From the NCBI GenBank assembly GCA_943842505.1, contig CALTDI010000008.1, positions 1 to 64,000 of the forward strand: DNA of 64,000 nt, read 5' to 3'. The notes under the pieces were generated by a model that saw nothing but the letters and a program-made list of their open reading frames with translations, did not search any database and had not been told where the DNA came from. The DNA is from an uncultured Pseudomonadales bacterium (lineage in GTDB: Bacteria > Pseudomonadota > Gammaproteobacteria > Pseudomonadales > Pseudohongiellaceae). The position numbers and the translations under genes are program-made. Within the stretch, counting starts at the first letter, position 1. Every line of letters starts with the position of its first letter. Below are positions 7,103 to 30,817 of this stretch, one piece after another.

Positions 7103-7496
7103 AGTTGTCGTGTCTCGTTGTGATTTGAATAGTGAACTACTTTTTGTGCGTCAGACCATGATGGGGCAAAGTGAAAGTCGGGCGATGATCTAGGCGCGGT
7201 CGTTGTTGCTGGCTTGCGTCTGTAAAACTAGCACTTAGAATCGCTCGATGACAACGGATTCACTAAAAATTGATTCAATCAAAGAGTTTCTCAGTACGAT
7301 TTCCTTGTTTCTGGTGTATTTGGGAGGCAAAGCAGGGGGTTTTGCTCGCCAAAGCGATGTTTTCTAGCTTTGAGGCGCGGTATCATGCTGTGAATACAGG
7401 GTGGCTATGCATTAACATGGGCGCCTAGAGAGATCCTGAAACTACTTAAATGCTAGAGGGCGAATCTGCCCAGTGCAACTATTTGAGAGCAATGTA
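7103..7496. other. Divergent intergenic region, dipeptidase / gamma-glutamyltransferase
   Basis: About 390 bp between two genes read outward, so it should hold both promoters. I find no pair of boxes near consensus and no clear hairpin; the short frames here are broken or lack a ribosome site. Confidence 0.4.
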
Positions 7497-9330: not shown

Positions 9331-9598
9331 CTGAGTTCACTTAATTCCCGGGAATGGTTTCTTGTTCCTCCAGATAGGCTGGTGTATTCGGTTGATCCTC
9401 AGATATTTCTGAGTTTTCTTAATTCCCGGGAGTATATTCTGGTTCCTCCAGATAGGCTGGTGTATCTGGGGGGCTAGAGTTTTTTTTGAGTTAACTCAAT
9501 TCCCGGGAGTGTATTCTGGTTCCTCCAGATAGGCTGGTGTATTCGGTTGATCCTCAGATATTTCTGAGTTTTATTAATTCCCGGGAGTGTATTCTCGA
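9331..9598. repeat. 78-bp tandem repeat (about 3.4 copies) overlapping the acylase 3' end
   Basis: A TTCCCGGGA box recurs at 9345, 9423, 9500 and 9578 (steps of 78, 77, 78 bp), and the surrounding sequence (GTTCCTCCAGATAGGCTGG, CTCAGATATTTCTGAG) repeats with it. The copy nearest the gene contains the end of the acylase reading frame and its stop. Read on the minus strand, the other copies can be translated into a similar tail ending EYTPGN or a variant plus a stop, so the array looks like tandem duplication of the coding 3' end. The second unit differs in its inner part (CTGGGGGGCTAGAG). Confidence 0.9.
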
Positions 9599-11802: not shown

Positions 11803-11877
11803 AGTGGTTTCGCCTGTGCACAATCGCGTTAGTAGTGAACTTCTTGTTAGTTGTTAGTTGTTAGCTGCTACCAATGT

Positions 11878-13533
11878 CTAGTCAGTAACACGCTGTCCGT
11901 TAACCCATGTCTGTTTAACTTCTATCTGCCAAATCTCACTCTCATCGATTGCGAACATATCTCTATCGATGATGATGAAGTCTGCCTTCTTGCCCCTCTC
12001 GAGAGTGCCGAGTAAGTCTTCCTGATGACCGGAATAGGCTGCATCGATAGTAAAGCTGGCGAAGGCCTCGATCGCAGTCATCTTCTCTTCGGGAAACCAT
12101 CCTCCCGGCGGTTCGTTGTTCTTGTCCTGTCTGGTGATGGCGGCATGCAAACCGAAGAAGGGGTTCGGTGACTCTACCGGAAAATCAGAGCCATTTGCGA
12201 TCAAGGCTCCGGCGTCGATTAGTTTGCGCCAGGCATAGGCACCCTGAATGCGTGCATCGCCGATTCTATCCACAGCCATGTTCTTGTCGCTGGTGGCATG
12301 GGTTGCCTGCATGGAGGGTATGACTCCGAGTTCGGCAAAGCGAAGTATGTCTTCATAGCGCAGAATCTGCGCGTGTTCCACTCGATGTCGCAAACCTCCT
12401 GAATTTGTTTCAGCGATGAGTTGTTCGTAGTTGTCCAATACGACCTTGTTCGCGTTGTCGCCTATCGCGTGGGTGTTTACCTGAAAGCCCGCATTCATCG
12501 CAGCGCGCATGAAATATTCGAGACGCTCGGGGTTGTGCAGTAACAGGCCAGTGTGTCCCGCGAGGTCTGAATAGTCGTCTATCATTGCAGCGCCGCGGCT
12601 GCCCAGTGCGCCATCGGCTGCGATTTTCACACTGTTCATGGTGAGGGTGTCATCATTACTGCGGTAGTGTCCTTCGGCGAGGCGCTGCTCGTAGTAACTG
12701 TCTCCCGCCGACAGCATCACATTCACGCGAATAGGCAGAGGGCCGTCTAGGAGAAGCTGCTTATAGGCTTCTATCACACTACTGCCCGCTCCTGCATCGT
12801 GGACGCTGGTGAGGCCTTGCTTGGCTAGCTCCAGCATCGCCGTGTTCAAGGCGAATTTCTGTTCCTCCATGCTGGTGGCTGGTATCTGCGAGCTAACTAG
12901 AGCCATGGCATTGTCTACGAATACACCGGTTGGATTGCCATCCTCATCGCGAATAATCTGTCCGCCATCCGGGTCCTCGCTGCGCCGGTCTATTCCGGCT
13001 AGTTCCATAGCAAGGCTATTCGCCCATGCTGCGTGACCATCAACCCGGCGCAGCCATACCGGCTTGTTAGCGATAAGAACATCCAGACTAGAGGCCGATG
13101 GAAATTCGTTACTATCCCATAGTACCTGGTTCCAGCCGCGACCCTGGACCCACTGTAGCTGTTCATTATTTTCAGCGAAGTCGGCAACACGTTGCACCGC
13201 CTCTTGCTCGGTCTCGGTTCCCACCAGATCCGCACGCAGCAGGCTGAGGCCGTAGCTGAGTATGTGTCCATGGGCGTCAATCAGCCCGGGTAATAGCGTC
13301 TGGCCTTCACCATCGATAACCGTGTCTACTTCATCAGGAAGCTCCTCGTCTTCTGGAAAGACTCTGTCTACACTATCGTCTGTGAACTGAATTGCCGTGA
13401 AATGTTGTAGTTCACGACTCGAGTCCAGGGTATAGCCATTTACATTGGTGATGAGAGTGGTATCAGCATAGACAGATACATTAATCAGTATGCCTAAGGA
13501 TAGGGCTTGGGTGGATAGAAGTAGCTTGTTCAT
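11878..13533 (-). CDS. Exported amidohydrolase, YtcJ-like (Amidohydro_3)
   Basis: A 551-residue metal-dependent hydrolase with an N-terminal signal peptide (about 1-23). It shows the amidohydrolase order: GQTLLPGLIDAHGH (H88, H90), a middle stretch LGSRGAAM, NTHAIGDNANK, HRVEHAQIL and late GSDFPVESPNPF with the catalytic Asp. Relatives act on formamides, hydantoin-like or other amides; the substrate is not evident. It is upstream of and in the same direction as the acylase (75 bp gap), suggesting a two-gene amide-degrading unit. Confidence 0.87.
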   Translation of the reverse strand: MNKLLLSTQALSLGILINVSVYADTTLITNVNGYTLDSSRELQHFTAIQFTDDSVDRVFPEDEELPDEVDTVIDGEGQTLLPGLIDAHGHILSYGLSLLRADLVGTETEQEAVQRVADFAENNEQLQWVQGRGWNQVLWDSNEFPSASSLDVLIANKPVWLRRVDGHAAWANSLAMELAGIDRRSEDPDGGQIIRDEDGNPTGVFVDNAMALVSSQIPATSMEEQKFALNTAMLELAKQGLTSVHDAGAGSSVIEAYKQLLLDGPLPIRVNVMLSAGDSYYEQRLAEGHYRSNDDTLTMNSVKIAADGALGSRGAAMIDDYSDLAGHTGLLLHNPERLEYFMRAAMNAGFQVNTHAIGDNANKVVLDNYEQLIAETNSGGLRHRVEHAQILRYEDILRFAELGVIPSMQATHATSDKNMAVDRIGDARIQGAYAWRKLIDAGALIANGSDFPVESPNPFFGLHAAITRQDKNNEPPGGWFPEEKMTAIEAFASFTIDAAYSGHQEDLLGTLERGKKADFIIIDRDMFAIDESEIWQIEVKQTWVNGQRVTD

Positions 13534-13735: not shown

Positions 13736-15481
13736 CTATTCACCTTCGCCAGCTTCTGCTTCGACATATCTGAAGAAGCCGAAGAACATCTCTTGCCAGG
13801 TTTGTTCCCCCCACGAGATCGTTGAAGACGGGTCAGGGTTAAAAGGGTTATTCGCCGAATTGTCGAATGTAGCCCTGAATACCATCTCTGTGCCGGCTGG
13901 CAAGAACTTAGGTTCTTTGAAGTCATAAGTCTTCTGCCAGTTAAATTGATAGTTAGGTACGTTAAGAATTTCCTCTACCTCACCATCAGGATAGACGAGT
14001 TTGAAATTCGCATCAGAGCCGCGGTAATGCATGTGCGGTCCAACCATAGTCAGTAGTGAGTCTTTGCGGAATTTCTTGGTTGCTACCATCTCGTGATCGG
14101 CTTCGAATGGCTCGATAGAGATATCGAGATCTGAAGCTGAGCCGCCAAGGATAGGACGATCAGGCTCTTCATCCCACAGGTAGATACCAATCTCTGAAGC
14201 ATCTACGGCTTCTTTACCTGAAGTGGTGTAATGCATCTGCAGCATCAATCCGCCACCAACTTCAAGAGGATAGCCCGCACCTTCAGGGTAGGTGTTGAGT
14301 GAATTACCCGGCGCATAGGCACCAAGACCTATGCCCTGATTTAGAATTTCAAACTCATTCAAGCCATTGGCGCCGTAGGAGAAGGCGATAATGTGATGCA
14401 GAACTGTAGTATCACCCGGCGTAAACTCAACTGCTTTTACCCAGATGTCTTCTTCAAGATCCAGAGGAATCATAAGATTTCGATAGTCTTGAACACCGGT
14501 TGCAGGAATACGCTGTTCCGGAATAGGAATGATGATGTCTGGCGTACCGTTAGCCCACTTAACCGCTTCGGGGCGGTATTCTGCAAGAGGGTCGGAATCG
14601 TCATTGTTAGGTGAGCCAGCATTGATCCAGCTAACCAGCTTCTGAGTTTCGTCAATAGTAATGTGGTTCACGCCGTGGAAGCTTTCCACATATTCGCTAT
14701 CGATCTGCCCCGGCGGCATACGCTTGGTATAAAGCGTTTCGCGGATCATTGGCGACCAACCTTGAACCATCTGATGGCTGCTCATTGCGAAAGGGGCTAT
14801 GCCGCCTTCCATGTGACAGCTAACGCAGCGTTCTTTAAGAATTGGTGCGATATCGTTGGCATAGGACAGTGCCTCAGCATGTGCTGCATCGACGGTGAAT
14901 TCTATCACATCTCCCTTGCTCGCTAGTTGCTCCACAGTGATTTCTTGATCACTAAGAATCGCTGTCAGTGCGTCTGCAACATAATGCTCTTTCGCGCGTC
15001 TTGCACGGCTACCTTCGGAGAAACGATCGTTAAGCGCGCCGCGGTAAATAACTTCTTTGGCTGAGGGGTCAAGAATGACCACTTCCGCTGTGCGACTAAT
15101 GCCCAGCTCCTCTGCTACCAGTTGTGTGTCATCCATCAATACGCGAAGAGTAATATCTTCTTTCTCTGCGGCTTCTCGCATGGCGAGCTTGTCTGTGGAG
15201 CCGGTTGAGTTGATCATCAGGAACTCGACCTTCTGTCCTTCGAACTGCTCTGCGACGTCCGCAAGATCAGAGGCAGCGCGTCGCGCATCTCTATTAGCCG
15301 GGTCGTAGGAAAAAAGCACAATCGCCTGCTCATCGCCGTGGCGGCTGAGTTGGAAAAATCGACCATCGGCATCGACTAGTGAGAAGTCACTAATACGTTC
15401 AGCGGCATTTGCTGACATACCAACAAATACTGTCATCAAAGATGCAGTGGCGATCTTGGCAATCATTGAAAATCTAAGCAT
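13736..15481 (-). CDS. Redoxin-heme-PHM fusion: type II copper monooxygenase, paralogue 1
   Basis: An exported 581-residue protein (signal peptide ~1-26). Domains: redoxin-like fold ~30-180; one c-type heme motif CVSCH at 219-223 followed by KRMPP at 253-257; then a two-lobed copper monooxygenase domain ~315-575. The metal ligands known in animal PHM all have counterparts: H362/H363 and H417 (first copper), H483/H485 and M565 (second copper). PHM-type enzymes hydroxylate a carbon next to nitrogen or on a side chain with O2 and reductant. Unlike its two paralogues, the redoxin active-site loop (FSYDPANRDAR) has no Cys, so it cannot be a thiol peroxidase. A GAGGAG ribosome site precedes the start. 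Two paralogues lie at 20673 and 22712. Confidence 0.85.
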   Translation of the reverse strand: MLRFSMIAKIATASLMTVFVGMSANAAERISDFSLVDADGRFFQLSRHGDEQAIVLFSYDPANRDARRAASDLADVAEQFEGQKVEFLMINSTGSTDKLAMREAAEKEDITLRVLMDDTQLVAEELGISRTAEVVILDPSAKEVIYRGALNDRFSEGSRARRAKEHYVADALTAILSDQEITVEQLASKGDVIEFTVDAAHAEALSYANDIAPILKERCVSCHMEGGIAPFAMSSHQMVQGWSPMIRETLYTKRMPPGQIDSEYVESFHGVNHITIDETQKLVSWINAGSPNNDDSDPLAEYRPEAVKWANGTPDIIIPIPEQRIPATGVQDYRNLMIPLDLEEDIWVKAVEFTPGDTTVLHHIIAFSYGANGLNEFEILNQGIGLGAYAPGNSLNTYPEGAGYPLEVGGGLMLQMHYTTSGKEAVDASEIGIYLWDEEPDRPILGGSASDLDISIEPFEADHEMVATKKFRKDSLLTMVGPHMHYRGSDANFKLVYPDGEVEEILNVPNYQFNWQKTYDFKEPKFLPAGTEMVFRATFDNSANNPFNPDPSSTISWGEQTWQEMFFGFFRYVEAEAGEGE

Positions 15482-15834
15482 TTCGCTCTCCTCAAACTAC
15501 AAAAAATAGTGGGTACTACTTTACAAACTAGGCATGCATAGTAGGGTGCATGTTCCGGGAATACTTCCCGAATATTGAAAAAACAGAGAATTTGAATAAT
15601 CGAATAGCTGTTTTTAGCTAAAACTGCCCGTAGTTCCCCGTTTATACGTGATCTATGTATTTCTGGTTCACTGTTAGATGGCTTGTATTCTCAGAATCAG
15701 GGGCTCAACTACTGACTTTTCGAGCACTGTTTGCTCGCGTGCAACCTCTGGAATAGGACGTGAGGCGGGCGGGTCTGGAGTAGCAATGGATGCTGGTACT
15801 TAAGGGGTAGCAAAAGGTAGAATTTAGCTCCATT
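15482..15834. other. Divergent intergenic region upstream of paralogue 1
   Basis: Contains an imperfect palindrome TTCCGGGAA-tac-TTCCCGAA at 15553-15572 that could bind a regulator, and a small inverted repeat TAGCT/AGCTA near 15605-15620. No convincing -35/-10 pair was found. Confidence 0.35.
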
Positions 15835-16689
15835 ATGGTGCGCAGTGAGGCAAGAAAATTGTTCTTTAGAAGCACGGGGCAGACCCTAGTTGCTAAACAC
15901 CTAGCTTGCTTGGCCCGATCCAATGGGTGCGAGGCTTTCTATAGAGTTGTAGCGATATCCTTACTGCTGGTCATTTCAGCCCAGTCTCACTCCGCCGAGC
16001 TGCGCATTGCCCATTGCCTGTATGGATGCCCCCAAGGTGGCAGCGTCGAGAATCATCTGGTTCTCAGACCTATCTATGCGCTGTCTTACAATACGCAGAA
16101 CAAGGTGGCGGACTGGGCCGCCTACCGAGTGACGGCGGGTTCAATTGGTATCGCCTCTAGCCTGTCGCGTCAGAGCGTGAAAGACGACTTTATTGAAGAG
16201 ACGCTGACGGAACTCGATTTTTTAGGTTCCCAAGAGCTTGGGCTCACCCGTGCGCAATTGGTGCCATTGGTTAATTTCGCTGGAACGCCGTATTGGAATG
16301 ACGTGAACTTCCTGAGCAACACGGTAGCGCGCAGCCAGAATTTAAGCCAGGGGGCCTGGTACGGTCTGGAATGGTCAATAAGAAATCTGGTTAATAGAAA
16401 GAACGAGGTCTATATTCTAGCTGGGCCCATATTTAGAGAGCAGCCGTCGGTTGCGAGTTTGGAAACAGAAACACCGCATAGAGTACCAGATGCATTTTTC
16501 AAAATAATTGTCTCCACCGATGATCAGGCGACTGCATTCATTTTCGATCAGGATCTTGCGGTTCACGTCCATCACTGTGACAACAGGGCCAGCATTGAAG
16601 AGATCGAAACAGCGACAGGCTTGGATCTGTTTCCCCAGAACTCCAGACTGGTTGCGGGATCGCTTGATGCCAGTCTGGGTTGTTTCTAG
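15835..16689 (+). CDS. NUC1-fold (DNA/RNA non-specific endonuclease) protein lacking the catalytic motif
   Basis: A 284-residue protein with a hydrophobic export segment at about 36-54 after a long, doubtful N-terminus (a start downstream is possible, but no good ribosome site is seen). The mature part begins like NUC1 nucleases: HCLYGCPQGG, PIYALSYNTQNKVADWAAYRVT, and later FLSNTVARSQNLSQGAWYGLE, which matches the conserved Asn/Gln/Glu face. The catalytic DRGH box should occur in between, but reads T138-R139-A140-Q141, so the general-base His and the Asp are both lost. Probably an inactive nuclease fold with a binding role. It stands alone between two minus-strand genes. Confidence 0.7.
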   Translation: MVRSEARKLFFRSTGQTLVAKHLACLARSNGCEAFYRVVAISLLLVISAQSHSAELRIAHCLYGCPQGGSVENHLVLRPIYALSYNTQNKVADWAAYRVTAGSIGIASSLSRQSVKDDFIEETLTELDFLGSQELGLTRAQLVPLVNFAGTPYWNDVNFLSNTVARSQNLSQGAWYGLEWSIRNLVNRKNEVYILAGPIFREQPSVASLETETPHRVPDAFFKIIVSTDDQATAFIFDQDLAVHVHHCDNRASIEEIETATGLDLFPQNSRLVAGSLDASLGCF

Positions 16690-16754
16690 CTGCGTTACTT
16701 TAGCGCTAGTGTTAAAGCCTGAATTGATTGAGGTTTAAATGAAACCTGCCTCGA

Positions 16755-17327
16755 CTAGCGGATCTCGGCTAGGAAATAGTCATCGCCAATAAGCTCATTG
16801 ATAAGCCTGTCCAGAGCGGCGCGAACGGTAACGGTCATACCTTCACTGGTGGGTGTTCTGCCTCTGCCAAATAGCGTGGTTTGCCACACGGTGCGGCTCC
16901 CGCTCATTAGCTGTACCGACGTTCGCAGGGTTAGTTCTAGTGTCTCTACACCGCCGCGATCGATAATCTTTGCTTCACTGGAAAGCAGGTTACCTTGTAG
17001 AAACATATCCCCATCGGCATCAACCAGCTTGGCATTGGCATTGGCAAAGCCGCTGGTCATAGCATCCTGAATTATTTCGGAGATCGCCTTCTCGGCTTGA
17101 AAGCCATCGGCTCCTAAAAGAGCAGCGTCTGTAATCAGGCGAGGATTATCAAACGAGCGGCCATCGGTAAACTCGGCAATGCGCAGGCTGACCTTCATAT
17201 TGCTAAGATCGCTGCGAGCAGCGCCCTCCATTTTATAGTTGATGACAAGGTCTTCAGCGGCAATTACAGAGGCGGAAAAAAATCCAAGGCATGCAGCGCA
17301 AATTGAAATCAAAAATCGAATTTTCAT
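16755..17327 (-). CDS. Exported hypothetical protein (weakly YajG-like)
   Basis: 190 residues with a clear signal peptide (MKIRFLISICAACLGFFSASVIA). The mature protein alternates short beta strands, with AEFTDGRSFDNPRLI near the start and a region of repeated strand pattern (LELTLRTSVQLMSG, TVWQTTLFGRGRTP), a layout reminiscent of YajG/LPS-export-type small periplasmic proteins. No conserved catalytic residue is visible and I cannot name a function. It is convergent with the NUC1-like gene. Confidence 0.6.
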   Translation of the reverse strand: MKIRFLISICAACLGFFSASVIAAEDLVINYKMEGAARSDLSNMKVSLRIAEFTDGRSFDNPRLITDAALLGADGFQAEKAISEIIQDAMTSGFANANAKLVDADGDMFLQGNLLSSEAKIIDRGGVETLELTLRTSVQLMSGSRTVWQTTLFGRGRTPTSEGMTVTVRAALDRLINELIGDDYFLAEIR

Positions 17328-17504
17328 GGAACTAAGTCTCTCGTTGTTTAGCGATTCATTATTGTTTGGAAGAGCTATTTAAATATTTCGAATAGCGTCG
17401 TTTGCTCTCAGGCCGAGCATAATTGACATGTTGGGTATGATCAAGCATGGAGCCTGAATAGAGACTTAACGCTGCCTAGTTACCGGAGTTCGGTATATCC
17501 AAGT

Positions 17505-17541
17505 ACAAAAAAAGCCGCGTCGAATTGCTTCGACGCGGCTT
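17505..17541 (-). terminator. Terminator of the NHL propeller gene
   Basis: A perfect 13-bp stem: AAGCCGCGTCGAA (17512-17524) with TTCGACGCGGCTT (17529-17541) and a 4-nt loop. On the minus strand it is followed by a run of T. Confidence 0.93.
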
Positions 17542-17565
17542 CGTTTAAAACGCTCTAGAGAGTTT

Positions 17566-18759
17566 TTACAACTCGTCTGCAGGCCAAGTTGGCGCGCGGT
17601 CTCGAACTGTTACCGGGCGAACTCCTTGGTATAGGAACTTCTGTACACGGCTGCCCTCATAAGTCTCAGTAGTGTAGATGTTGTTCTGAGAATCAGTGGC
17701 AATACTGTGTGGTGCGTAGAATGTACCTGGCTGACGACCACCTTGGCCGAAAGTGTAAAGTACTTCCATTGACTCACGATCGATTACAGAGATCTTGAAG
17801 TTCTGACCGTCTGCAAGATAGATAAACTCTTGCTCTGGGTCGCGTGAGAAAGCGATATCCCAAGTTGAACCTTGGTTCAATGTAGCTGGGTTATAGACAA
17901 CTTCTCTTACGTAAGTACCGTCTTTACGGAAGACCTGAACTCGGTCAGCGCCACGGTCACATACATAGACGAGTCCGTCATTTGAAGGCTCTGCACAGTG
18001 AACCGGTCCGCGAAATTGCTGAGGACCAGGCTGGCCAGGTGTATAAGTTACGTCAGCAGTATCGTCTGGACGATTACCGTAAGCACCCCAGTAGCGCTTG
18101 AAGGCGCCAGTAGACACGTCAACAACCGCTACACGCTTGTTCTGGTATCCATCTGCAAAGTAAGCTTCGTTTGCTTCAACGTCGATGGCGATCTCTGCAA
18201 CTCGGCCGTAGTGTGTCTGGCTGTTGCTGTCGCGATCTTCGCCCTGCATACCGATAGTGCGAATGTACTCGCCGTCACGTGTGAACACTAGAACGTGTGA
18301 GTCACCGCCACCGTTGCCGCCGATCCAAACGTCACCGTTAGGTGCAATTTCGATACCGTGGTTAGATGCAGGCCATGTGTATGGTGCGCCCTCTACAGGA
18401 CCGCCCCATGCATTGATGATGTTGCCTTCTATATCAATTTCGATGATTGGTGGTGCAGGAGTACAGCATTCTGCAACACCGCCCTGAAGACCAATTTCAG
18501 TGTTGCCACCGAATTGTGAGGCGTCATTTCTGTGAACGATGAAGATATGATCTCTCTCGTCTACGTCAACACCGATAGTGTTACCCATAGCCCAATGATT
18601 TGGGAGTGGCTTAGGCCAGAATGGGTCTACTAGAAAGTGTGGTGCCATTACATCATTTGAAGCAGCGATGCTTGGCTCTTGTAATTTTGATTGTCCTACT
18701 CCAAGGACAACCAGTGCAACGACGAGTGTTGCACCTATGAATAGCTTCATCTTTGTCAT
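17566..18759 (-). CDS. NHL-repeat beta-propeller, PAL (peptidyl-hydroxyglycine lyase)-like
   Basis: A 397-residue exported or membrane-anchored protein (hydrophobic segment ~5-22) predicted as a six-bladed propeller; NHL-type blades are seen around 131-160, 184-215, 250-278, 299-328 and 348-376. In PAL, the lyase half of peptide-amidating enzymes, three His bind zinc and a Tyr and an Arg act in catalysis. Here three His sit at the same blade positions (H134 in ASNHGIEIAP, H254 in GPVHCAEPS, H351 in APHSIATDS), Tyr205 lies in ADGYQNKRV (PAL: SDGYxNSRI) and R269 in CDRGADRV. PAL splits alpha-hydroxyglycine peptides into amide and glyoxylate. The nearby PHM-like genes support this reading; a non-enzymatic NHL propeller is the alternative. 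The start is preceded by AGAGGA. Confidence 0.75.
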   Translation of the reverse strand: MTKMKLFIGATLVVALVVLGVGQSKLQEPSIAASNDVMAPHFLVDPFWPKPLPNHWAMGNTIGVDVDERDHIFIVHRNDASQFGGNTEIGLQGGVAECCTPAPPIIEIDIEGNIINAWGGPVEGAPYTWPASNHGIEIAPNGDVWIGGNGGGDSHVLVFTRDGEYIRTIGMQGEDRDSNSQTHYGRVAEIAIDVEANEAYFADGYQNKRVAVVDVSTGAFKRYWGAYGNRPDDTADVTYTPGQPGPQQFRGPVHCAEPSNDGLVYVCDRGADRVQVFRKDGTYVREVVYNPATLNQGSTWDIAFSRDPEQEFIYLADGQNFKISVIDRESMEVLYTFGQGGRQPGTFYAPHSIATDSQNNIYTTETYEGSRVQKFLYQGVRPVTVRDRAPTWPADEL

Positions 18760-18816
18760 TCTTATTTTCCTCTCAATGCCCGAATTGCGGGGGATTTAAA
18801 CTCTCAGAGCAAGGCC

Positions 18817-18850
18817 GAGTATACTCATTTCTTTGGAGACAGTATACTCA
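18817..18850. promoter_or_regulatory. Pair of palindromic operator-like sites
   Basis: GAGTATACTC (18817-18826, perfect palindrome) and AGTATACTCA (18841-18850, palindromic core AGTATACT) lie 23 bp apart centre to centre, about two helix turns, in the divergent region between the propeller gene and the HupE-type gene. This is the usual geometry of a two-dimer regulator site; the regulator is unknown. Confidence 0.45.
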
Positions 18851-19002
18851 CAGGCCAAATTTTCCGGAGACTGCATGTAAGTATTTGTAACAGCCCGATG
18901 ATGGTCGAGAATGTAGCGCTATTGATGCATTTTTAGTGTACCTTTCGACCTTCGTAGCATATGCCCTATCTAATTGAAATTAATAATAAATTAAAAGAAA
19001 CC

Positions 19003-20382
19003 ATGAAACTATTTAGCACAAAAATATCCTCTATTTCGGTTAAGAAATTAGCGACGGCATGCCTGTTCTTGATGGCGACTTTGTTCCCAACTCTTAGCAC
19101 CGCTCACGATATCCCGAGCCGTGTCACTGTATATGCATTCGTCAAACCCGAAGGAAATCAGCTGACGGCACTGCTGCGCGTGCCAATGGAGGCATTCAGC
19201 GAGATCAGCTTTCCGTTGCGAGGCCCGGGTTATATTCAGATCTCAGAGGCGGATTTCGCGCTCAACGATGCCGCTCGCGTCTATATCACAGAATCCATGC
19301 ACTTCTATGAGAACGGAGAGGAGCTCACCGAGAAGCAGCTGGAAACAGTGCGTGTCTCGCTGCCTTCAGATCGTTCATTTACTACCTACGACGATGCCTT
19401 GGAGAATATCCTCAGTCCACCGCTTGATGACTCCGTCGATCTATTCTGGCGTCAGGGTGTTCTGGATGTCATGGTGACCTATCCCATAACATCTGAAGAG
19501 TCTCAGTTTTCTGTAAATCCCGAGATAGGCACCCTGTCTAATCAGACAACAACAGTGCTGCGCTTCCTGGTGCCTACTGGAGCGGAGAGAATATTTAATT
19601 ATCTTGGTAATCCTGGCATCGTCCAGTTAGATCCGCGCTGGCATCAGGCGGCATTCCGCTTCGTAAAGATGGGCTTCGAGCATATCCTGGAAGGGCTTGA
19701 CCATCTTCTATTTCTATTCTGCCTGGTTATTCCCCTGCGCAGCGTGCGTGCGCTGATACCGGTAATAACGTCATTTACTATTGCTCACTCGCTTACACTC
19801 ATCAGCTCGGCGTTCGGCATGGCACCTAATGCGCTCTGGTTTCCTCCCTTAATCGAGACACTAATAGCGCTCTCGATTGTGTATATGGCCTTTGAGAATA
19901 TCATTGGAGCGAAGCTGGAGCACCGTTGGGTAGCGGCGTTCGGATTTGGTCTGGTGCACGGCTTTGGTTTCTCCTTCCTCTTTAGCGACACCCTACAATT
20001 TGCTGGTGGGCACCTATTCTCCTCGCTGTTGGCTTTTAATGTAGGCGTGGAACTGGGTCAGATCCTGGTATTGATTCTTGTCATTCCGATACTGAATATA
20101 CTGTTTCGCAACTTCATCAAAGAGCGTATCGGTACTATTTTACTCTCGGCATTGCTAGCCCACAGCGCCTGGCACTGGATGCTGGATCGTGGCAATTCTC
20201 TTGGGCAATTCCAGTTGCAGATGCCAATCATCGATTCGATATTTTTTGTTGGGCTGATGCGCTGGGGCATGATGCTGATTCTCATCGCGTTTGTGCTCTG
20301 GGGAATGTATGAATTATTCCGCCGCTTCTCTCTGGTAGAGAAGGTGTCTAGCTATGGCGTGAGCCGAGACGCCAAGAGCTAG
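19003..20382 (+). CDS. HupE/UreJ-family membrane protein with periplasmic N-terminal domain
   Basis: About 459 residues. A signal peptide ends at TLSTAHD; a ~190-residue extracytoplasmic domain follows, then six or seven membrane helices. The first helix carries GFEHILEGLDHLLF, the metal-binding signature of the HupE/UreJ group (HxxxGxDH). Members are thought to move nickel or cobalt or to assist metalloenzymes. Located between PHM-type copper enzyme genes, a role in metal supply to them is possible but not shown. The ATG at 19003 is chosen because the signal peptide begins there; the ATG at 18961 has no ribosome site. Confidence 0.78.
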   Translation: MKLFSTKISSISVKKLATACLFLMATLFPTLSTAHDIPSRVTVYAFVKPEGNQLTALLRVPMEAFSEISFPLRGPGYIQISEADFALNDAARVYITESMHFYENGEELTEKQLETVRVSLPSDRSFTTYDDALENILSPPLDDSVDLFWRQGVLDVMVTYPITSEESQFSVNPEIGTLSNQTTTVLRFLVPTGAERIFNYLGNPGIVQLDPRWHQAAFRFVKMGFEHILEGLDHLLFLFCLVIPLRSVRALIPVITSFTIAHSLTLISSAFGMAPNALWFPPLIETLIALSIVYMAFENIIGAKLEHRWVAAFGFGLVHGFGFSFLFSDTLQFAGGHLFSSLLAFNVGVELGQILVLILVIPILNILFRNFIKERIGTILLSALLAHSAWHWMLDRGNSLGQFQLQMPIIDSIFFVGLMRWGMMLILIAFVLWGMYELFRRFSLVEKVSSYGVSRDAKS

Positions 20383-20672
20383 TTTCACTGCATTTTCGTC
20401 CGCTTGAGCTGGCTCAGATCTATCAGGCTGTGCCGGCTCCATGCCTCTCCAAGTAATTGAATTATATGATATATTTTAATTCCTGCAGCTCGTCTAGTTT
20501 CAATTTGTCACAAAGCCTTACAGTCTACCGGTATCTGCCTGTTGTCGGATTGGGCTAAGCTTGTGCTCTAGAAAGATTTCTTAGTGAGCAGGTTCAGATA
20601 CTGCTCGAGAGTTGCTGTGAAAATGAGTATTGCAGGACTTCCGCAACGACCTTCTACAGAAAGGTTATCCCC

Positions 20673-22460
20673 ATGAAAAAGAACAACAGAATGAATAAAA
20701 AGTTAAGCGCACTACTGCTCCTAACATTAAGCTGTGTGTTTGCGATTCAGTCACATGCTAGCGCAGAACGGGTTGGAAATTTTGCCCTAATCGATCACGA
20801 GGGTGTCTACCACCAGTTACAGAAATATGGTGATAGTAAAGCGGTAGTAATTATTTCGACCGCGGCCAGCTGCGAGGAGAATATCGAGCGCTTACACAAG
20901 TACCGTTTGTTACGAACTACATGGGAGCGTCAGGGCGTTAGTTTTCTGGCAATCAACTCTAGCGCTGAAGACAGCCTGGGTCAGGTTCGCCTAATGGATC
21001 AACTCCATAATTTCGATATTCCAATTCTACTGGATGACAGTCAGCTGGTTGCCGAGAGTCTCGGTCTTAGCAAGGCTGGCGAGATTGTTGTTTTGGAACC
21101 GACGCGCAGTCAGGTTTTATATCGTGGCGGTTTGGACATCGATCCAGTCCGGGCACGTCCCGGGCTCAGTATAGAAGCGGTGGAAGGAACTACTGTTTTT
21201 GCCGACGTGCTAGCGAAGGCGGTTGCCGGTGAGGCTGCGGCCATAGAACAAACCATTACTAGCGAGTCTGCCGGTTGCGCACTAAAATTTCGGGCAAGAG
21301 ACCACCATGCCAGCGCGGCACCTGATTATGCAACTGAGGTTGCTCCTATACTGCAAGAGAAATGCGTCAGCTGTCATATCGAGGGTGGGATAGCACCCTT
21401 TGCCATGGATTCTCATATGATGGTTCAGGGTTGGTCGCCCATGATGAAAGAAGTCATGATGACGAAGCGTATGCCTCCAGCGCAGGTGGACCCCAATGTA
21501 AATCATTTCACTAACGCACGTTATATGGCTTCCGATGAGCTGCAAACTTTAGTACATTGGATTGATGCAGGGTCGCCGCGCGGAGTCAGCGAGGTGGATC
21601 CCTTGACGCTAATCCAGCCGCCAGAATCCGTGTGGGAACTGGGAGAGCCTGATTATATCGTCGAAGTTCCGGCATTTACGGTACCCGCCACCGGTGTTCT
21701 CGACTATGAAAATGTCACCATCAATCTACCCTTTGAAGATGATGTCTGGGTGAAGTCTGTCCAACATCTGCCAGGTGACCGTCGCGTTCTTCATCACCTG
21801 CTAAGCTATATTGTTCCAGCAGACTATGCCGAAGAAATCGTTGAGGGTGAGAATGATAACTACAGAGAGTTTCTGGAAGGCTATGCGCCGGGCAAGGATG
21901 AAGCGGTAACCTATCCGGAGAACACTGGCATGTTTGTACCCCAGGGTTCCGCGGTGCAGATGTCTCTGCACTACACGACATTTGGCAAGGAAACGACGGA
22001 TAGCACAAAGCTTGGCCTGTATTTCGCCGATGAGAAACCCGAGTTTCAATACTCTACCTACTCTCTGAGCCATGGTGGCCGTAATATCGAGATTCCGCCG
22101 GGTGCTGTCGATCACCAGATGAGCGCATCCTATGCCTTCGAGGACGAAGTGATGCTGCATGGTTTGCGTCCGCATATGCACTATCGCGGCAAGCGCATGC
22201 GCTTCAGTGTCGTCTATCCCGATGGAAGCAAGGATCAGATCATCAATGTCCCTGACTATAACTTCGCCTGGCAGCCAACCTATAGACTCTCCGAGCCCAT
22301 GCTGCTGCCAGCTGGCTCGAGGGTGATGATCGAGGGTGCTTTCGATAACTCCCAATACAACCTGGGCAATCCAGATCCTGCCGCGGTAGTCAGAGGAGGC
22401 GCTCAAAGCTGGGACGAGATGTTTATTGGCTACCTCTCTTATAATAAGACTGGCAAATAG
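20673..22460 (+). CDS. Redoxin-heme-PHM fusion: type II copper monooxygenase, paralogue 2
   Basis: 595 residues, signal peptide ~1-30. The redoxin-like domain (~33-190) keeps one Cys at the peroxidatic position (C67, STAASCEEN). The heme c motif CVSCH is at 231-235, with KRMPP shortly after. Copper ligand candidates: H374/H375, H433, H501/H503 and M583. The tail DEMFIGYLSY matches that of the third paralogue. An AAAGG ribosome site lies 8 bp upstream of the ATG. It is transcribed in the same direction as paralogue 3, but a terminator-like hairpin separates them, so the two are probably regulated separately. Confidence 0.85.
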   Translation: MKKNNRMNKKLSALLLLTLSCVFAIQSHASAERVGNFALIDHEGVYHQLQKYGDSKAVVIISTAASCEENIERLHKYRLLRTTWERQGVSFLAINSSAEDSLGQVRLMDQLHNFDIPILLDDSQLVAESLGLSKAGEIVVLEPTRSQVLYRGGLDIDPVRARPGLSIEAVEGTTVFADVLAKAVAGEAAAIEQTITSESAGCALKFRARDHHASAAPDYATEVAPILQEKCVSCHIEGGIAPFAMDSHMMVQGWSPMMKEVMMTKRMPPAQVDPNVNHFTNARYMASDELQTLVHWIDAGSPRGVSEVDPLTLIQPPESVWELGEPDYIVEVPAFTVPATGVLDYENVTINLPFEDDVWVKSVQHLPGDRRVLHHLLSYIVPADYAEEIVEGENDNYREFLEGYAPGKDEAVTYPENTGMFVPQGSAVQMSLHYTTFGKETTDSTKLGLYFADEKPEFQYSTYSLSHGGRNIEIPPGAVDHQMSASYAFEDEVMLHGLRPHMHYRGKRMRFSVVYPDGSKDQIINVPDYNFAWQPTYRLSEPMLLPAGSRVMIEGAFDNSQYNLGNPDPAAVVRGGAQSWDEMFIGYLSYNKTGK

Positions 22461-22490
22461 CTAATGTTTCGCTAATTGAGCGTCTTCACT

Positions 22491-22517
22491 AAAAAAGGGC
22501 CGGCAGGCTCTTTTTTA
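22491..22517 (+). terminator. Terminator after paralogue 2
   Basis: AAAAAAGGGCC pairs with GGCTCTTTTTT with one mismatch and a 4-nt loop; T-run follows directly. Confidence 0.75.
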
Positions 22518-22711
22518 TTGTATGTTGACGCTAGACGCCTGGCGATAAGGCTTTAAACAAAGAGTTTTGCTCCTCACGCTGCTCGAAAACCTCGTTAAAC
22601 AGCCTGGTAGCTGCGACGTTCTGTTACAAAAAGTAATCTTTCCGAGTGCATTTTTAACTCTGTTTGGGCTACACTGCTAGGGTTAATAAAAAGCTTCTTG
22701 GAGCCTTGAAA

Positions 22712-24415
22712 ATGAAGAGAATTTTAGGAATCGGTACAGCTGTAATCGCGTCAGTTTTGACCGCGTCAGCCTTTGCCCTGCCAGATAGAGTGGGCGATTT
22801 CGGTCTATTGGACAGTGATGGTGATTTTCACCAGTTGAGTCGTTACCGTAATAAAGAGGCATTGGTACTAATGTCTTTCGATAGCAGCTGCGCTGCGATC
22901 AACTCCTCAGTTTCCAATCTTGAGGCTATGGCCTCTGAATGGAATGAGCAGGGCATAGCCTTCGCGCTGATCAATTCTTCATCAGAATCCAATATCGAGA
23001 CTATTCGAGCCGCTAAGTCTGCACTAGGTTCCGATCTGCCCTTGTTGCTCGACGACGGACAGATAGTTTCTGAAACCCTGTCCCTGAGTAAAGCCGGCGA
23101 AATCGTTGTGCTTGACCCCGAGCGACTGACTATTCTCTATCGCGGACCGGCTGCTAATGCTGTATCGACGCTATCCAGCGAACTAGCTGGCACTGTCGAT
23201 AGCACAATGATTGTTGATGCCGTTGGATGTGATCTGCAATATCCAGTGAAAGAGACTCATGCTAGTGCCACGCCCGATTACGCAACAGAAGTAGCTCCAA
23301 TCGTCGTTGAGCAGTGTGCTACTTGTCATCGCGAAGGTGGAATTGGACCTTTCGCAATGGACAGTCACCTGATGCTGCAAGGCTGGTCACCGATGATTCG
23401 TGAGGTGCTGCTTACCAAGCGTATGCCGCCTACACAGGTTGATCCAAATATTGGTCATTTCAGCAACGCGCGTTACATGAGTGACGCCGATCTGCAGACT
23501 CTTGTTCATTGGATAGATGCAGGGGCACCACGTGGTGCCTCGGCGATCGATCCATTGACCGAAGTCGAAATGCCTAACTGGAAAGAATGGAGCCTTGGTG
23601 AGCCAGACTTTATTATTAAGGCACCGAAGATGGAGATTCCGGCAACGGGCGTACTGGATTACATCGATGTCGATGTTGAGCTACCTTTCGACGAAGACAA
23701 GTGGGTAAAAGCGGTACAGTTTATCCCTGGCGATGAATCAGTTCTTCACCATCTTCTAACCTATGTAACAGCACCTGCCGAAAATTTCGATGGCGGTGAA
23801 GGCAATACTACTTCTGTTGCGCGCCGATTCCTTGAGGGCTATGCCCCGGGTAAAGTGGACGCCATGACTTTCCGTCAGGATACGGGTGTGTACATTCCCA
23901 AGGATCACAAATTGTCCATGCAGTTCCACTTTACAACTAACGGTAAAGCGACAACTGATGAAACACTTATTGGTCTTTACATGTACGACGAACCACCGAA
24001 GTATGAGAACTTCACTCGTTCGGTAGCCTCGCAGTTCCGCATCCCGGCCTACGATCAGGATTACGAATCACATGCTCAGTATGTGTTCGATGAAGACGTG
24101 GTAGTAACCGGTCTGCGTGCGCACATGCACTTTCGCGGCAAGGACATGAAGTTCGCCATGGAAAATGACGATGGCTCGATGACCGATCTGCTTAGCGTTC
24201 CAAACTACAGCTATGCATGGCAGCCTACTTACGAACTGGAAGAGCCGGTTCAGATTAAGGCAGGCACTAAAGTACATGTAACCGGAGCCTTCGATAACTC
24301 GCAGTACAATCCGGCGAATCCTGATCCTTCTCAGGAGCTAACTTTCGGCTTACAAAGCTGGGATGAGATGTTCATTGGTTACTGGACATACCATTCGGCG
24401 ACACCTTCAAACTAA
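22712..24415 (+). CDS. Redoxin-heme-PHM fusion: type II copper monooxygenase, paralogue 3
   Basis: 567 residues from the ATG at 22712, which has TTGGAGCC before it and starts a clean signal peptide (MKRILGIGTAVIASVLTASAFA); the GTG/ATG frame further upstream adds 16 unneeded residues. Redoxin-like domain with one Cys (FDSSCAAIN), heme motif CATCH at about 202-206, copper ligands at about H346/H347, H406, H471/H473 and M553. It is closer to paralogue 2 than to paralogue 1 (shared THASATPDYATEVAPI-type linker and ending), so 2 and 3 look like a later tandem duplication. Confidence 0.85.
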   Translation: MKRILGIGTAVIASVLTASAFALPDRVGDFGLLDSDGDFHQLSRYRNKEALVLMSFDSSCAAINSSVSNLEAMASEWNEQGIAFALINSSSESNIETIRAAKSALGSDLPLLLDDGQIVSETLSLSKAGEIVVLDPERLTILYRGPAANAVSTLSSELAGTVDSTMIVDAVGCDLQYPVKETHASATPDYATEVAPIVVEQCATCHREGGIGPFAMDSHLMLQGWSPMIREVLLTKRMPPTQVDPNIGHFSNARYMSDADLQTLVHWIDAGAPRGASAIDPLTEVEMPNWKEWSLGEPDFIIKAPKMEIPATGVLDYIDVDVELPFDEDKWVKAVQFIPGDESVLHHLLTYVTAPAENFDGGEGNTTSVARRFLEGYAPGKVDAMTFRQDTGVYIPKDHKLSMQFHFTTNGKATTDETLIGLYMYDEPPKYENFTRSVASQFRIPAYDQDYESHAQYVFDEDVVVTGLRAHMHFRGKDMKFAMENDDGSMTDLLSVPNYSYAWQPTYELEEPVQIKAGTKVHVTGAFDNSQYNPANPDPSQELTFGLQSWDEMFIGYWTYHSATPSN

Positions 24416-24787: not shown

Positions 24788-24817
24788 TTGTATCGCTGGT
24801 CGCTAACTTGCTATGAT
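24788..24817 (+). promoter_or_regulatory. Candidate sigma-70 promoter of the cstA-family gene
   Basis: TTGTAT (24788-24793), an 18-bp spacer and TATGAT (24812-24817) preceded by TG-C (extended -10). It lies 42 bp before the chosen start codon. Confidence 0.6.
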
Positions 24818-24859
24818 GCCGAACTCAGAATTCATAATAATAATCCTGGAGAACGCTTT

Positions 24860-26572
24860 ATGTCCTCGATCTTTATCGTCATCTTCGGGCTAGTCGGTTT
24901 TTCTTTTGGCTGGTTCGTCTACTCCAAGTTCATCGCTGGGAAAATCTACCAGTTAGATCCTGACTATGTGACACCGGCCCATCGTGTGAATGATGGTGTC
25001 GATTATGTGCCTACCAATAAGTTCGTGCTTTGGGGTGCGCACTTTACGGCTGTCGCTGGTGCGGCACCCATTGTCGGCCCGGCTATCGCTGTCTACTGGG
25101 GTTGGGTTCCGGCTCTATTATGGGTGACTTTAGGTTCTATATTTTTTGCCGGTGTTCACGACATGGGAGCCCTGTGGGCGAGTACGCGGCATGGCGCGAA
25201 ATCGATCGGGGCGCTTTCCTCTGATGTGATCGGCAAGCGTGCCTCGGCATTGTTCATGGTTATCATCTTCTTGCTGCTGGTGCTGGTAAATGCGATGTTT
25301 GCGACCATCATTGCGACAGACATGGTTATCTTTCCTTCATCTGTGTTCCCAGCCTGGGCCGCCATTCCGGTAGCGATTGCCATCGGCATATTGATTCGTA
25401 AGAACTTCAATCTGTTGCTGATCTCGGTCATCGGTGTAGCTATCCTCTACTTCACTATCTATGTTGGTAGTGTGATGCCATTAGAATTGCCAGGAGATAT
25501 CTTCGGTCTTGGCGCTAACGGCAACTGGATTATCTTGTTGTTTGTCTATGCGGGCATTGCCTCCATGCTGCCGGTCTGGTTATTACTACAGCCGCGCGAC
25601 TATATTAATGGCGCACAATTGGTCTTAGGTTTGTTTGTGCTATACAGCGCCGTATTCATCGCCATGCCTAATGTGTCTGCTCCTGCATTCAATCCAAACC
25701 TGGCGGTTGATACTCCGCCATTGTGGCCAATTCTTTTTGTAACCATTGCCTGTGGTGCCTTGTCTGGATTCCACGGCATCGTGTCTTCCGGCACTAGCTC
25801 CAAGCAATTAAGCAACGAGAAAGACGCGCGTTTTGTGGGCTATCTCGGTGCCCTCGGCGAAGGCTCGCTGGCTTTGATTACAATCGTGGCGGTGACAGGT
25901 TCTCTGTACGCGGCTACGGGCGCAGACTGGGATGCGATCTATTCTGGCTATGCCAGCGGCCCGGGCCAGAAAGGCTTCATCGACGGCGGCGCCATATTGA
26001 TCTCTACCGGCTGGGGCATTCCCATAGCTTTCTCTCAGACAATGCTTGCCGTGATGGTAGTGCTGTTCGCAGGGACAACGATGGATGCAGGTCTGCGTCT
26101 GCAGCGTTACATCATTCAAGAATGGGGCAGCATCTATAACATCAAGCCATTGAAGAACAATATCATCTCTACGCTGGTTGCGATCGCAGCCTGCCTGATG
26201 TTGGCGTTCGGTGTTTCTGCAGGAGGCTATCCAGGTGACGGCGGCGCGCTAATCTGGCCTGTATTCGGCGGAACCAATCAGATATTGGCTTCAATGACCC
26301 TGCTATTGATTGCCGTTTACCTCATGCGCCTAGGGCGCTCGCCAAAATTTATCTTGGCGCCGATGATATTTATCTTCGTCATGGCATTCTGGGCTTCGTG
26401 CTGGTACATCGTCCAGCACTATCAGAACGCCCAATGGGCCTTGGTGATTATCGAGGTGCTGGTAATGATTACCAGCATCATGGTTATGTTGGAAGCGCTT
26501 GGTGTGATCTCTAAACTCAGAAGCGGCGAGATCGCTGTTGAATCGGCGGATGCTGCAAGCACTGGGGAGTAG
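24860..26572 (+). CDS. Carbon starvation CstA-family transporter
   Basis: 570 residues, many hydrophobic helices, inner membrane. N-terminal signature: GKIYQLDPDYVTPAHRVNDG, then YVPTNKFVLWGAHF and AGAAPIVGPAIAVYWGW, all typical of CstA/BtsT carriers, which take up pyruvate or peptides under carbon limitation. Later FHGIVSSGTSSKQL is also conserved. It is shorter than E. coli CstA (about 700 residues), lacking part of the C-terminus, as in the short branch of the family. The start at 24860 has CTGGAG before it and begins the first helix; the frame upstream is not needed. Confidence 0.88.
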   Translation: MSSIFIVIFGLVGFSFGWFVYSKFIAGKIYQLDPDYVTPAHRVNDGVDYVPTNKFVLWGAHFTAVAGAAPIVGPAIAVYWGWVPALLWVTLGSIFFAGVHDMGALWASTRHGAKSIGALSSDVIGKRASALFMVIIFLLLVLVNAMFATIIATDMVIFPSSVFPAWAAIPVAIAIGILIRKNFNLLLISVIGVAILYFTIYVGSVMPLELPGDIFGLGANGNWIILLFVYAGIASMLPVWLLLQPRDYINGAQLVLGLFVLYSAVFIAMPNVSAPAFNPNLAVDTPPLWPILFVTIACGALSGFHGIVSSGTSSKQLSNEKDARFVGYLGALGEGSLALITIVAVTGSLYAATGADWDAIYSGYASGPGQKGFIDGGAILISTGWGIPIAFSQTMLAVMVVLFAGTTMDAGLRLQRYIIQEWGSIYNIKPLKNNIISTLVAIAACLMLAFGVSAGGYPGDGGALIWPVFGGTNQILASMTLLLIAVYLMRLGRSPKFILAPMIFIFVMAFWASCWYIVQHYQNAQWALVIIEVLVMITSIMVMLEALGVISKLRSGEIAVESADAASTGE

Positions 26573-29623: not shown

Positions 29624-30817
29624 ATGGCGAAGGAAAAATTCGAAAGAAATAAACTACACGTAAACGTAGGTACTATTGGTCACGTTGACCATGGTAAGAC
29701 GACGTTAACAGCGGCCTTGACCAAGGTTTGTAATGAAGTATACGGCACAGGTGAAGTACGTGATTTCGCCCAGATCGATAATGCGCCGGAAGAGAGAGAG
29801 CGTGGTATCACTATCGCGACGTCTCACGTTGAATACGATTCTCCTAACCGTCACTACGCGCACGTTGACTGTCCAGGTCACGCTGACTACGTAAAGAACA
29901 TGATTACAGGTGCTGCGCAGATGGACGGCGCTATCCTGGTTTGTTCGGCAGCAGACGGCCCTATGCCACAGACGCGTGAGCACATCCTGCTGTCTTTGCA
30001 GGTTGGCGTACCTTACATCGTTGTGTTCATGAACAAAGCGGACATGGTTGATGACGAAGAATTGCTTGAATTGGTAGAGATGGAGATCCGTGAGTTATTG
30101 GATCAATACGAATTCCCAGGTGACGACACACCCATCATCATCGGTTCTGCGCTTAAGGCGTTGGAAGGCGATACGTCTGATATCGGCGTGCCCTCTGTAC
30201 AGAAGCTTGTTGAGACACTGGACAGCTACATCCCGGATCCGGTTCGTGACGTTGAGAAGCCATTCTTGATGCCAATCGAAGACGTATTCTCAATCTCCGG
30301 TCGCGGTACTGTTGTAACAGGCCGTATTGAGCGCGGAATTGTAAACGTGGGTGATGAACTGGACATCGTTGGTATCAAAGACACCCAGAAGACAGTATGT
30401 ACTGGTGTTGAGATGTTCCGTAAGTTGCTGGACGAAGGCCGTGCTGGTGAGAACGTTGGTGTTCTGCTGCGTGGTACTAAGCGTGAAGACGTTGAACGTG
30501 GCCAGGTATTGGGTAAGCCGGGTTCAGTAACACCCCATACGAAGTTTGAGGCTGAAGTGTATATCCTGAACAAGGATGAAGGCGGACGCCACACACCATT
30601 CTTCAAGGGCTACAGACCACAATTTTACTTCCGGACGACGGACGTGACAGGTGCTTGTGAGCTGCCAGAAGGCGTTGAGATGGTAATGCCAGGTGACAAC
30701 GTGAACATGGTTGTGACCTTGATAGCGCCAATCGCGATGGATGAAGGTCTACGTTTTGCTATCCGTGAGGGTGGACGTACAGTAGGCGCGGGCGTTGTAG
30801 CCAAGATCTTCGAATAA
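29624..30817 (+). CDS. tuf: Elongation factor Tu, copy 1
   Basis: 397 residues; carries aminoacyl-tRNA to the ribosome as a GTP complex. GTPase motifs [16 protein letters not shown] and NKADMVDD are intact, followed by the two beta-barrel domains. It starts with ATG, whereas the second copy at 46820 starts with GTG. The two genes differ at only five positions: the start codon and four synonymous third or first bases. Upstream and downstream sequences are unrelated, so the identity is kept by gene conversion. Co-transcribed with the three tRNAs. Confidence 0.98.

Follow-up and report, generated by a model that had tools for sequence, protein, structure and literature searches.

A bacterial locus of PHM-like copper proteins and a PAL-type propeller: a candidate heme-fed, two-step oxidative dealkylation system in Pseudohongiellaceae

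Does a bacterium possess, in separate genes, the copper and zinc enzymes that animals use in succession to amidate peptides? The question is raised by a locus in an uncultured Pseudomonadales bacterium of the family Pseudohongiellaceae (assembly GCA_943842505.1, contig CALTDI010000008.1, positions 1 to 64,000 of the forward strand; this whole stretch of 64,000 nucleotides is called the window). According to a prediction made from the sequence of the window (the original prediction), three exported proteins carry all six copper ligands of animal PHM, an NHL propeller among them has the metal-binding and catalytic residues of PAL, and together these proteins may hydroxylate and then split glycine-extended peptides or N-acylglycines. 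Our answer is a tentative one: the locus may encode an extracytoplasmic, two-step oxidative dealkylation system in which a heme-fed hydroxylase and a zinc lyase cleave carboxylate-bearing amides. The basis of this reading is homology, active-site residues, predicted folds, fusion architecture, and synteny. The source assembly is 3.25 Mb in 26 contigs. Most of the genomes near to it are metagenome records, under the labels Pseudohongiella, OM182, 'SAR86 cluster,' Pseudomonadales, or unnamed Gammaproteobacteria. The genes that carry the argument are the following.

13736 to 15481, minus strand: PHM-like protein A, with redoxin, cytochrome c (CxxCH), and dicopper monooxygenase domains and a Gly/Phe pocket
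17566 to 18759, minus strand: PAL-type NHL propeller, with R77, H134, Y205, H254, R269, and H351
18961 to 20382, plus strand: HupE/UreJ_2 membrane protein, divergent from the PAL-like gene across a 201-bp gap
20673 to 22460, plus strand: PHM-like protein B, with redoxin, cytochrome c, and dicopper domains and the pair Arg499/Tyr587
22664 to 24415, plus strand: PHM-like protein C, with the architecture and Arg/Tyr pocket of B

A 20-sequence profile of the propeller aligned with rat PAL (3fvz) from end to end in one stretch (E = 2.8e-42) and placed R77, H134, Y205, H254, R269, and H351 opposite the R, H, Y, H, R, and H of PAL. All the residues that the original prediction had assigned to the places of PAL (three His, a Tyr, and an Arg) were matched; it had missed the second Arg, R77, which we take to answer to rat Arg533, the histidines of PAL being presumably His585, His690, and His786. 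The AlphaFold2 (AF2) model of the propeller was six-bladed with six inner strands (pLDDT 85.9, pTM 0.83), and H134, H254, and H351 were each residue 2 of the innermost strand, in blades 2, 4, and 6. Histidines at equivalent points of alternate blades should stand around one axis. The convergence of the three His on one site, one of two points on which the prediction was to turn, is thus supported as far as the secondary structure of the model and the alignment with PAL go, and these residues would be expected to hold zinc. A Foldseek search with the model returned rat PAL as the first PDB match (E = 8.9e-16), with TRIM-type NHL domains close behind. Ser352 and Gln206 of the propeller stand where PAL has the Asp of HD and the Cys of DGYC; we take this Asp (Asp787, after the third His) to be a calcium ligand and the Cys to form a disulfide, so that both would be structural and not part of the catalytic set. 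The catalytic dyad of PAL is given as Tyr651 and Arg703 of human PAM, the latter being Arg706 in rat (PMC10303134). The equivalents of the dyad in the propeller are Y205 and R269.

The six-residue pattern RHYHRH was present in 101 of 136 aligned propeller sequences, a set that includes 8 Nitrospirota NHL proteins of about 980 amino acids (aa) and 5 weak matches, none of them PAL-like at the six positions, plus 3 near-PAL sequences with one changed residue. The 22 sequences that come from other families, picked among strong matches, all had the pattern. Only NHL repeats scored over the Pfam cut-off, and a phmmer search with a PAL fragment did not find PAL; among the five alignments printed per search, PAL was the only one to span the propeller completely in a single stretch and to match every catalytic residue. 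From alignment and predicted fold we conclude that the propeller is a PAL homologue. The agreement of key residues with PAL, and with PHM in the copper proteins described next, goes far beyond what chance would give.

A variant of the propeller also occurs, in which Tyr205 is replaced by His and His351 by Glu. It was found in 19 of the 136 sequences, always in Pseudohongiellaceae, and accounts for 6 of the 12 PAL/NHL genes of the source genome; examples are L123:7006-8058, L130:6234-7295, and L046:12793-13917, among others (L numbers denote the loci that we compared). Glu351 was never seen without His205, which has the appearance of a concerted swap of the catalytic Tyr and a metal ligand.

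In each of proteins A, B, and C a hydrophobic stretch at the N terminus is followed by a redoxin domain of the AhpC/TSA type, a CxxCH segment, and the copper domains; the fusion to redoxin and cytochrome c had escaped the original prediction. Such hydrophobic stretches, from which alone we read the export of the locus proteins, suggest that they are extracytoplasmic. The three open reading frames (ORFs) are where they had been placed, although the listed TTG start of C is perhaps too early, and the predicted ligands (HH and H for CuH, HxH and M for CuM) are invariant in their alignment. Ligands of PHM are reported as H107, H108, and H172 plus H242, H244, and M314, with ascorbate giving one electron per copper (PMC6123673). 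Among 106 distinct relatives, many of them from close kin, HH, H, and M were present in 106 and HxH in 104; CxxCH was present in all 106.

The relationship to PHM emerged only when the copper domains were searched by themselves with a family profile. Single-protein searches, including phmmer with one C-terminal copper domain, had no metazoan PHM among their matches, and a profile of the full-length proteins returned redoxins and a few short cytochrome c matches, with PHM absent. A trimmed profile of the copper domains from 24 sequences matched DBH (E = 1.1e-8) and rat PHM (1opm; E = 6.4e-6, model positions 4 to 252 against 33 to 280), with the six ligands in register with both and both copper domains spanned. 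The Pfam family Cu2_monoox_C scored over its cut-off for B and C, and below it for A, and was matched at E = 0.01 by 14 of the 24 trimmed family members. The predicted structure of B (pLDDT 89.2, pTM 0.86) gave DBH and then PHM as the first Foldseek matches (E = 8e-15 and 2e-14, probability 1.00), with redoxins after these and a target-normalized TM score of up to 0.67 for PHM.

Could these proteins handle redox equivalents or copper, the ligands being retained in something other than a hydroxylase? The fusion to redoxin and cytochrome c would suit such a role, HxH has been lost in 2 of the 106 relatives, and no characterized bacterial relative was among the titles and abstract openings listed in searches of open-licence papers. 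Nevertheless, all six ligands in 104 of 106 sequences, together with pocket residues that are fixed by clade (described below), point to catalysis. The redoxin part, moreover, is degenerate (A has no cysteines other than the two of CxxCH, and the redoxin domains of B and C contain a single Cys each) and is absent from 11 of the 18 PHM-like paralogues of the source genome. We regard a noncatalytic role as very unlikely. Since a CxxCH domain accompanies the copper domains in every relative, a heme may feed the coppers in place of ascorbate; heme binding, metal binding, and this electron route are to be understood as putative properties of the proteins. Two PHM-like paralogues (L124:17063-18916 and L138:7303-8991) have RxN in place of HxH, with the CuM ligands gone and the Arg/Tyr pair retained, and are possibly noncatalytic.

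What substrate might such enzymes accept? We compared two pocket positions, one two residues before HxH and the other four residues after the Met ligand. In the trimmed-profile alignment the first is Arg in rat PHM and Gln in DBH, and the second is Tyr in both. Arg499 and Tyr587 of B align with the PHM residues that we take to be Arg240 and Tyr318 and to bind the substrate carboxylate. The Arg/Tyr pair was found in 17 of 17 orthologues of B and 27 of 27 of C (44 of 44 together), Gly/Phe in 25 of 25 orthologues of A, and Ala/Trp in 12 of 12 members of a further PHM-like type that lies beside more distant PAL genes of the family; the remaining 25 of the 106 sequences had mixed residues. B and C thus seem suited to a substrate that bears a carboxylate, unlike A.

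These findings suggest how the locus might work. B and C would hydroxylate the carbon next to the amide nitrogen of an N-acylglycine or a glycine-ended peptide, with electrons arriving via the fused c-type heme rather than from ascorbate. The PAL-type zinc propeller would then cleave the hydroxylated product, releasing an amide and either glyoxylate or the corresponding aldehyde acid. Protein A, having a different pocket, would take another substrate, and the HupE/UreJ protein, whose relatives move metal, would perhaps supply the metal. The sequential action of the two enzymes, their export, and the class of substrate are what we infer from the parts. The original prediction of hydroxylation followed by splitting agrees with the catalytic anatomy of both proteins; peptide amidation as the purpose of the locus does not follow from it.

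If the two enzymes act in sequence, their genes might be expected to keep company. At thresholds of 1e-20 for PHM-like and 1e-10 for PAL-like genes, the former were found in 116 and the latter in 128 of 137 genomes of the family, the PAL-like threshold being loose enough to admit generic NHL proteins. We fetched 47 loci, 35 of them of the family type (the other 12 were two fragments and ten Nitrospirota loci). A PHM-like gene was present in the fetched flanks (up to 10 kb) of the PAL-like gene in 31 of these 35, which all come from one family and so are not independent and several of which are shortened by contig ends; L074, L077, L088, and L090 had none. The source genome has 18 PHM-like and 12 PAL/NHL genes, and with gene positions entered by hand for the chance tests, 4 of the 12 lay within 5 kb of a PHM-like gene (P = 0.0034; P = 0.021 without the window locus) and 2 of the 12 within 2 kb (P = 0.055). 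Among 20 second PAL loci in other genomes of the family, hand-picked from the family search lists, 5 had a PHM-like gene, as a raw count. Tighter arrangements exist. In L150 and L152 a PAL gene and a PHM-like gene adjoin on the same strand, 39 and 68 bp apart. In L122 (contig C13 of the source genome) and L157 (genome G198) four genes share one orientation and are spaced by -1 to 35 bp; they encode an exported-looking protein of 280 to 289 aa that we call X, a short PHM-like protein (cytochrome c and copper domains without redoxin), a pyrroloquinoline quinone (PQQ) dehydrogenase with its own cytochrome c, and a PAL-like propeller. The counts of 31 of 35 and 4 of 12 and the tight same-strand pairs make a merely accidental pairing less likely, and the four-gene operons make a hydroxylase-lyase relation more likely.

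Weighing against the two-step amide reading is a series of results that begins with the propeller itself. TRIM-type NHL domains outscored PAL when the search was made with a single sequence, with part of the sequence, or with a narrow profile, and Thin, which is of TRIM type, scored above PAL even with the 20-sequence profile, through three stretches. The best NCBIfam match was ScyF (E = 3.6e-20, 72 bits versus a cut-off of 350), and no PAL model was among the NCBIfam matches. The PAL gene does not form one operon with B and C, being divergent from them, and terminator-like sites follow both the PAL gene and B, a weak observation; the scan that found them gave 9 sites overall versus 10.0 in shuffled sequences, i.e., no excess. 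At 12 family loci whose PAL-like gene is 65 to 70% identical to that of the window, the adjoining PHM-like protein has Ala/Trp, and a C-type protein was seen only in L048 and L049 and not in the other ten; hence some PAL genes of the family have no neighbor with an Arg/Tyr pocket. The PQQ dehydrogenase that stands between PHM and PAL in the two operons would be unneeded for simple amidation. Outside the family the association disappears. None of 16 PAL-like loci from other families had a PHM-like gene (the ORF filter hid the PAL gene itself in L166, L173, and L174, all three of which are present in the propeller alignment). The large-group searches scored the best 3 PHM and best 5 PAL candidates per genome. 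Of 398 genomes sampled from the phylum, 62 gave a PAL-like match, close to full length in about 25 and otherwise a partial NHL match, and 3 gave a PHM-like match, namely the window's own genome, G361, and G517; the latter two were not among the 62. Among 119 genomes of the family of G517, 17 and 20 had the two gene types and 4 had both, versus 2.9 expected (P = 0.31), and no PHM- and PAL-like places listed in those 4 genomes were within 10 kb of each other. Lastly, HupE/UreJ was a steadier neighbor of the PAL-like gene than PHM was (34 versus 31 of 35 loci), and in Alphaproteobacteria HupE/UreJ lies beside PAL-like genes with no PHM-like gene detected. The predicted co-occurrence of the two families therefore holds within Pseudohongiellaceae and fails beyond it.

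Two candidate interpretations were rejected outright. A generic TRIM-like NHL protein does not describe the propeller, since TRIM chains match it by their repeats in several registers, and obligate partnership of PHM and PAL everywhere is contradicted by the counts in the phylum, in the family of G517, and in the outside loci.

The constancy of HupE/UreJ raises the possibility that the propeller works with that protein, either on another substrate of a lyase or hydrolase or in metal handling, and that the PHM-like genes are a lineage-specific addition. HupE/UreJ was missing near the PAL-like gene only in L074 of the 35 loci, PAL-HupE neighbors without PHM occur in L174 (none annotated or detected) and in the three plasmid loci given below, and PAL-like genes are far more widespread than PHM-like ones (62 and 3 of 398 genomes). 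In the phylum sample, however, only G409, besides the window, has a PAL-like gene beside HupE/UreJ among the places listed, and PAL-PHM pairs without a detected HupE occur in L122, L150, L152, and L157. The propeller, moreover, retains the complete set of six residues that a carbinolamide lyase uses in catalysis. On this evidence we consider a partnership with HupE/UreJ alone unlikely.

Plasmids supplied further observations. PAL-like and HupE/UreJ genes lie beside type II secretion genes, with PHM neither annotated nor detected, on three plasmids of Azospirillaceae, two from Skermanella and one from Indioceanicola (L181:7791-10739, L183:4791-7738, and L184:4791-7792). On a plasmid of Methylobacterium radiotolerans (L180:6641-10243) a PAL-like gene lies between genes for thiamine-pyrophosphate enzymes and an amidohydrolase gene, a catabolic-looking setting. 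A search for PHM-like genes on plasmids gave no match.

The four-gene operons bear on a second question, whether glycine amides are the point of the system at all. The copper enzymes might hydroxylate next to O or N in varied substrates, glycine amides being at most one of these, after which the PAL-type lyase would split the hemiacetal or carbinolamide and a PQQ dehydrogenase would oxidize the alcohol or aldehyde. The operons of L122 and L157 fit this wider periplasmic dealkylation or catabolism, as do a PQQ gene 21 bp from PAL in L147, a PQQ gene within 1 kb of 3 of the 18 PHM-like genes of the source genome (P = 0.043), and the presence in one genome of 18 PHM-like genes of several pocket types and 12 PAL/NHL genes. 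On the other side, no PQQ gene was found in the 64-kb window, and the PAL copy of the source genome's own operon (L122) has Glu instead of Tyr. The genome has about 30 PQQ genes (43 matches merged by eye to 30), for which reason the link is statistically weak, and the other measures of closeness were within chance (PHM at 5 kb, P = 0.36; PAL at 1 kb, P = 0.42, and at 5 kb, P = 0.16). With P values of 0.04 to 0.42 we do not accept the PQQ link as proof and keep it as a lead. We think this broader alternative somewhat unlikely. Nonetheless, because the operons suggest that products pass on to oxidation, we describe the chemistry of the locus as dealkylation, of which cleavage of glycine-ended substrates would be one case. 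That the family has turned PHM/PAL chemistry into a general periplasmic dealkylation machine cutting C-N or C-O bonds in marine organic matter, with 18 heme c-fed dicopper hydroxylases, up to 12 zinc PAL-type lyases (half of them His/Glu), and PQQ dehydrogenases as its parts, is a somewhat unlikely extension.

The X protein of these operons is possibly a partner subunit of the short PHM-like proteins. Of the 11 short PHM-like genes that the source genome has, 8 have an X homologue no more than 300 bp away, and no clear Pfam family was found in the three examples scanned. The homologues located were L122:4426-5268, L132:7565-8491, L134:8532-9506, L135:7985-8974, L136:7745-8761, L137:7841-9910, L053:17113-18096, and L124:15863-16816. 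The PAL-like propeller of L122 (8846-10636), in which Glu replaces Tyr, has an N-terminal domain of the metallo-beta-lactamase type.

From 13.7 to 26.6 kb of the window the gene order is PHM-like A (minus), a DNA/RNA non-specific endonuclease (plus), a 190-aa protein (minus), the PAL-like propeller (minus), HupE/UreJ_2 (plus), PHM-like B (plus), PHM-like C (plus), and a CstA-family transporter (plus). The remaining features in and beside the cluster are these.

1511 to 4207: M14 protein gene
5735 to 7102: M19 protein gene
7473 to 9215: GGT gene
9574 to 11823, minus strand: penicillin-amidase/PvdQ-like acylase, in 6 of the 9 loci examined from the window's genus (the remaining three stop short of the acylase) and in none of 6 from two other genera
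11878 to 13533, minus strand: Amidohydrolase_3 family protein, adjoining the cluster in all 9 loci examined from the window's genus and in none of 6 from two other genera
16755 to 17327, minus strand: exported-looking 190-aa protein, with no Pfam family over the cut-off
17511 to 17542, minus strand: terminator-like hairpin of 14 pairs directly downstream of the PAL-like gene, a consensus match only
24788 to 26572, plus strand: CstA-family transporter, found in 15 of 15 examined family loci

The cluster was kept, with rearrangements, in the 15 family loci compared, which were also hand-picked from the family search lists. A homologue of the 190-aa protein (28 to 95% identity) was near the PAL-like gene in 14 of the 15, L045 being the exception. 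Amide-hydrolyzing genes near the cluster count in favor of the two-step amide reading. The M14, M19, GGT, and acylase genes that had been cited for a peptide or N-acyl amide substrate are all present, and the amidohydrolase and, as far as the loci reach, the acylase accompany the cluster in the nine loci of the window's genus; both are absent from the six loci of the two other genera. A study surveying North Sea bacteria proposes, on other grounds, that large non-polysaccharide biopolymers, chiefly protein, may be used by this group and by its sister family (PMC8371827); this would fit peptide-derived substrates and proves nothing for this locus.

The window also contains two 397-aa ORFs (29624-30817 and 46820-48013), the first 85 to 91% identical in the compared loci that reach that far, which by size and conservation are EF-Tu candidates, and, at 34869-43305, two ORFs of 1375 and 1407 aa, the size of RpoB and RpoC. 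Proximity to such housekeeping-type genes may by itself hold the cluster in position. In L046, from another genus, two DUF6644-type membrane proteins lie beside the cluster (9889-10999), one with weak similarity to CopD/UPF0093; they are a possible electron or copper route.

How does the locus compare with known systems? It resembles animal and algal PAM in the six copper ligands, in the Arg and Tyr of the PHM pocket (in B and C), in a PAL propeller with three His, a Tyr, and two Arg, and in a probably extracytoplasmic location. It differs in that the genes are separate, with PAL on the strand opposite to B and C; in that the copper part is fused to cytochrome c and redoxin and there are several PHM-like paralogues; in that the sequences are distant; and in that the propeller has neither the Cys of DGYC nor an Asp behind its third His. 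Some animals, too, are reported to have PHM and PAL in separate genes (PMC6123673, PMC5461114). DBH gave the best score with the copper-domain profile and was first in the fold search, but has Gln where PHM, B, and C have Arg. To our knowledge, DBH has neither a heme domain nor a lyase partner. PAL-like relatives outside the family include one on a Priestia megaterium plasmid (23.5% identity, full RHYHRH, no PHM-like gene annotated in the plasmid region examined) and one in Bradyrhizobium (25.6% identity), the two being annotated under one name; the closer plasmid relatives, from Methylobacterium, Skermanella, and Indioceanicola, are called 'hypothetical protein' or have no annotated feature. 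In methylguanidine demethylation by MdgH and MdgL, too, hydroxylation is followed by a lyase that splits the hemiaminal, the hydroxylase being a 2-oxoglutarate dioxygenase in place of a dicopper enzyme; MdgL and PAL share no sequence homology, as stated by the authors (PMC12508155).

Among the titles and abstract openings listed in searches of open-licence papers we found no bacterial PHM/PAL locus and no fusion of cytochrome c to PHM, which is weak evidence of novelty; as far as those searches go, a heme-fused dicopper enzyme beside a PAL with the full set of residues is new. If the two-step reading is true, the copper and zinc chemistry of neuropeptide amidation has a bacterial form that is split between genes and fed by heme. 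It would offer a tractable model of electron supply to a PHM-type enzyme without ascorbate and would bear on the origin of PAM. Because the pocket residues are fixed by clade, tests of substrates would be direct. It would also put a name to an enzyme system for the marine turnover of acylated glycine or similar compounds.

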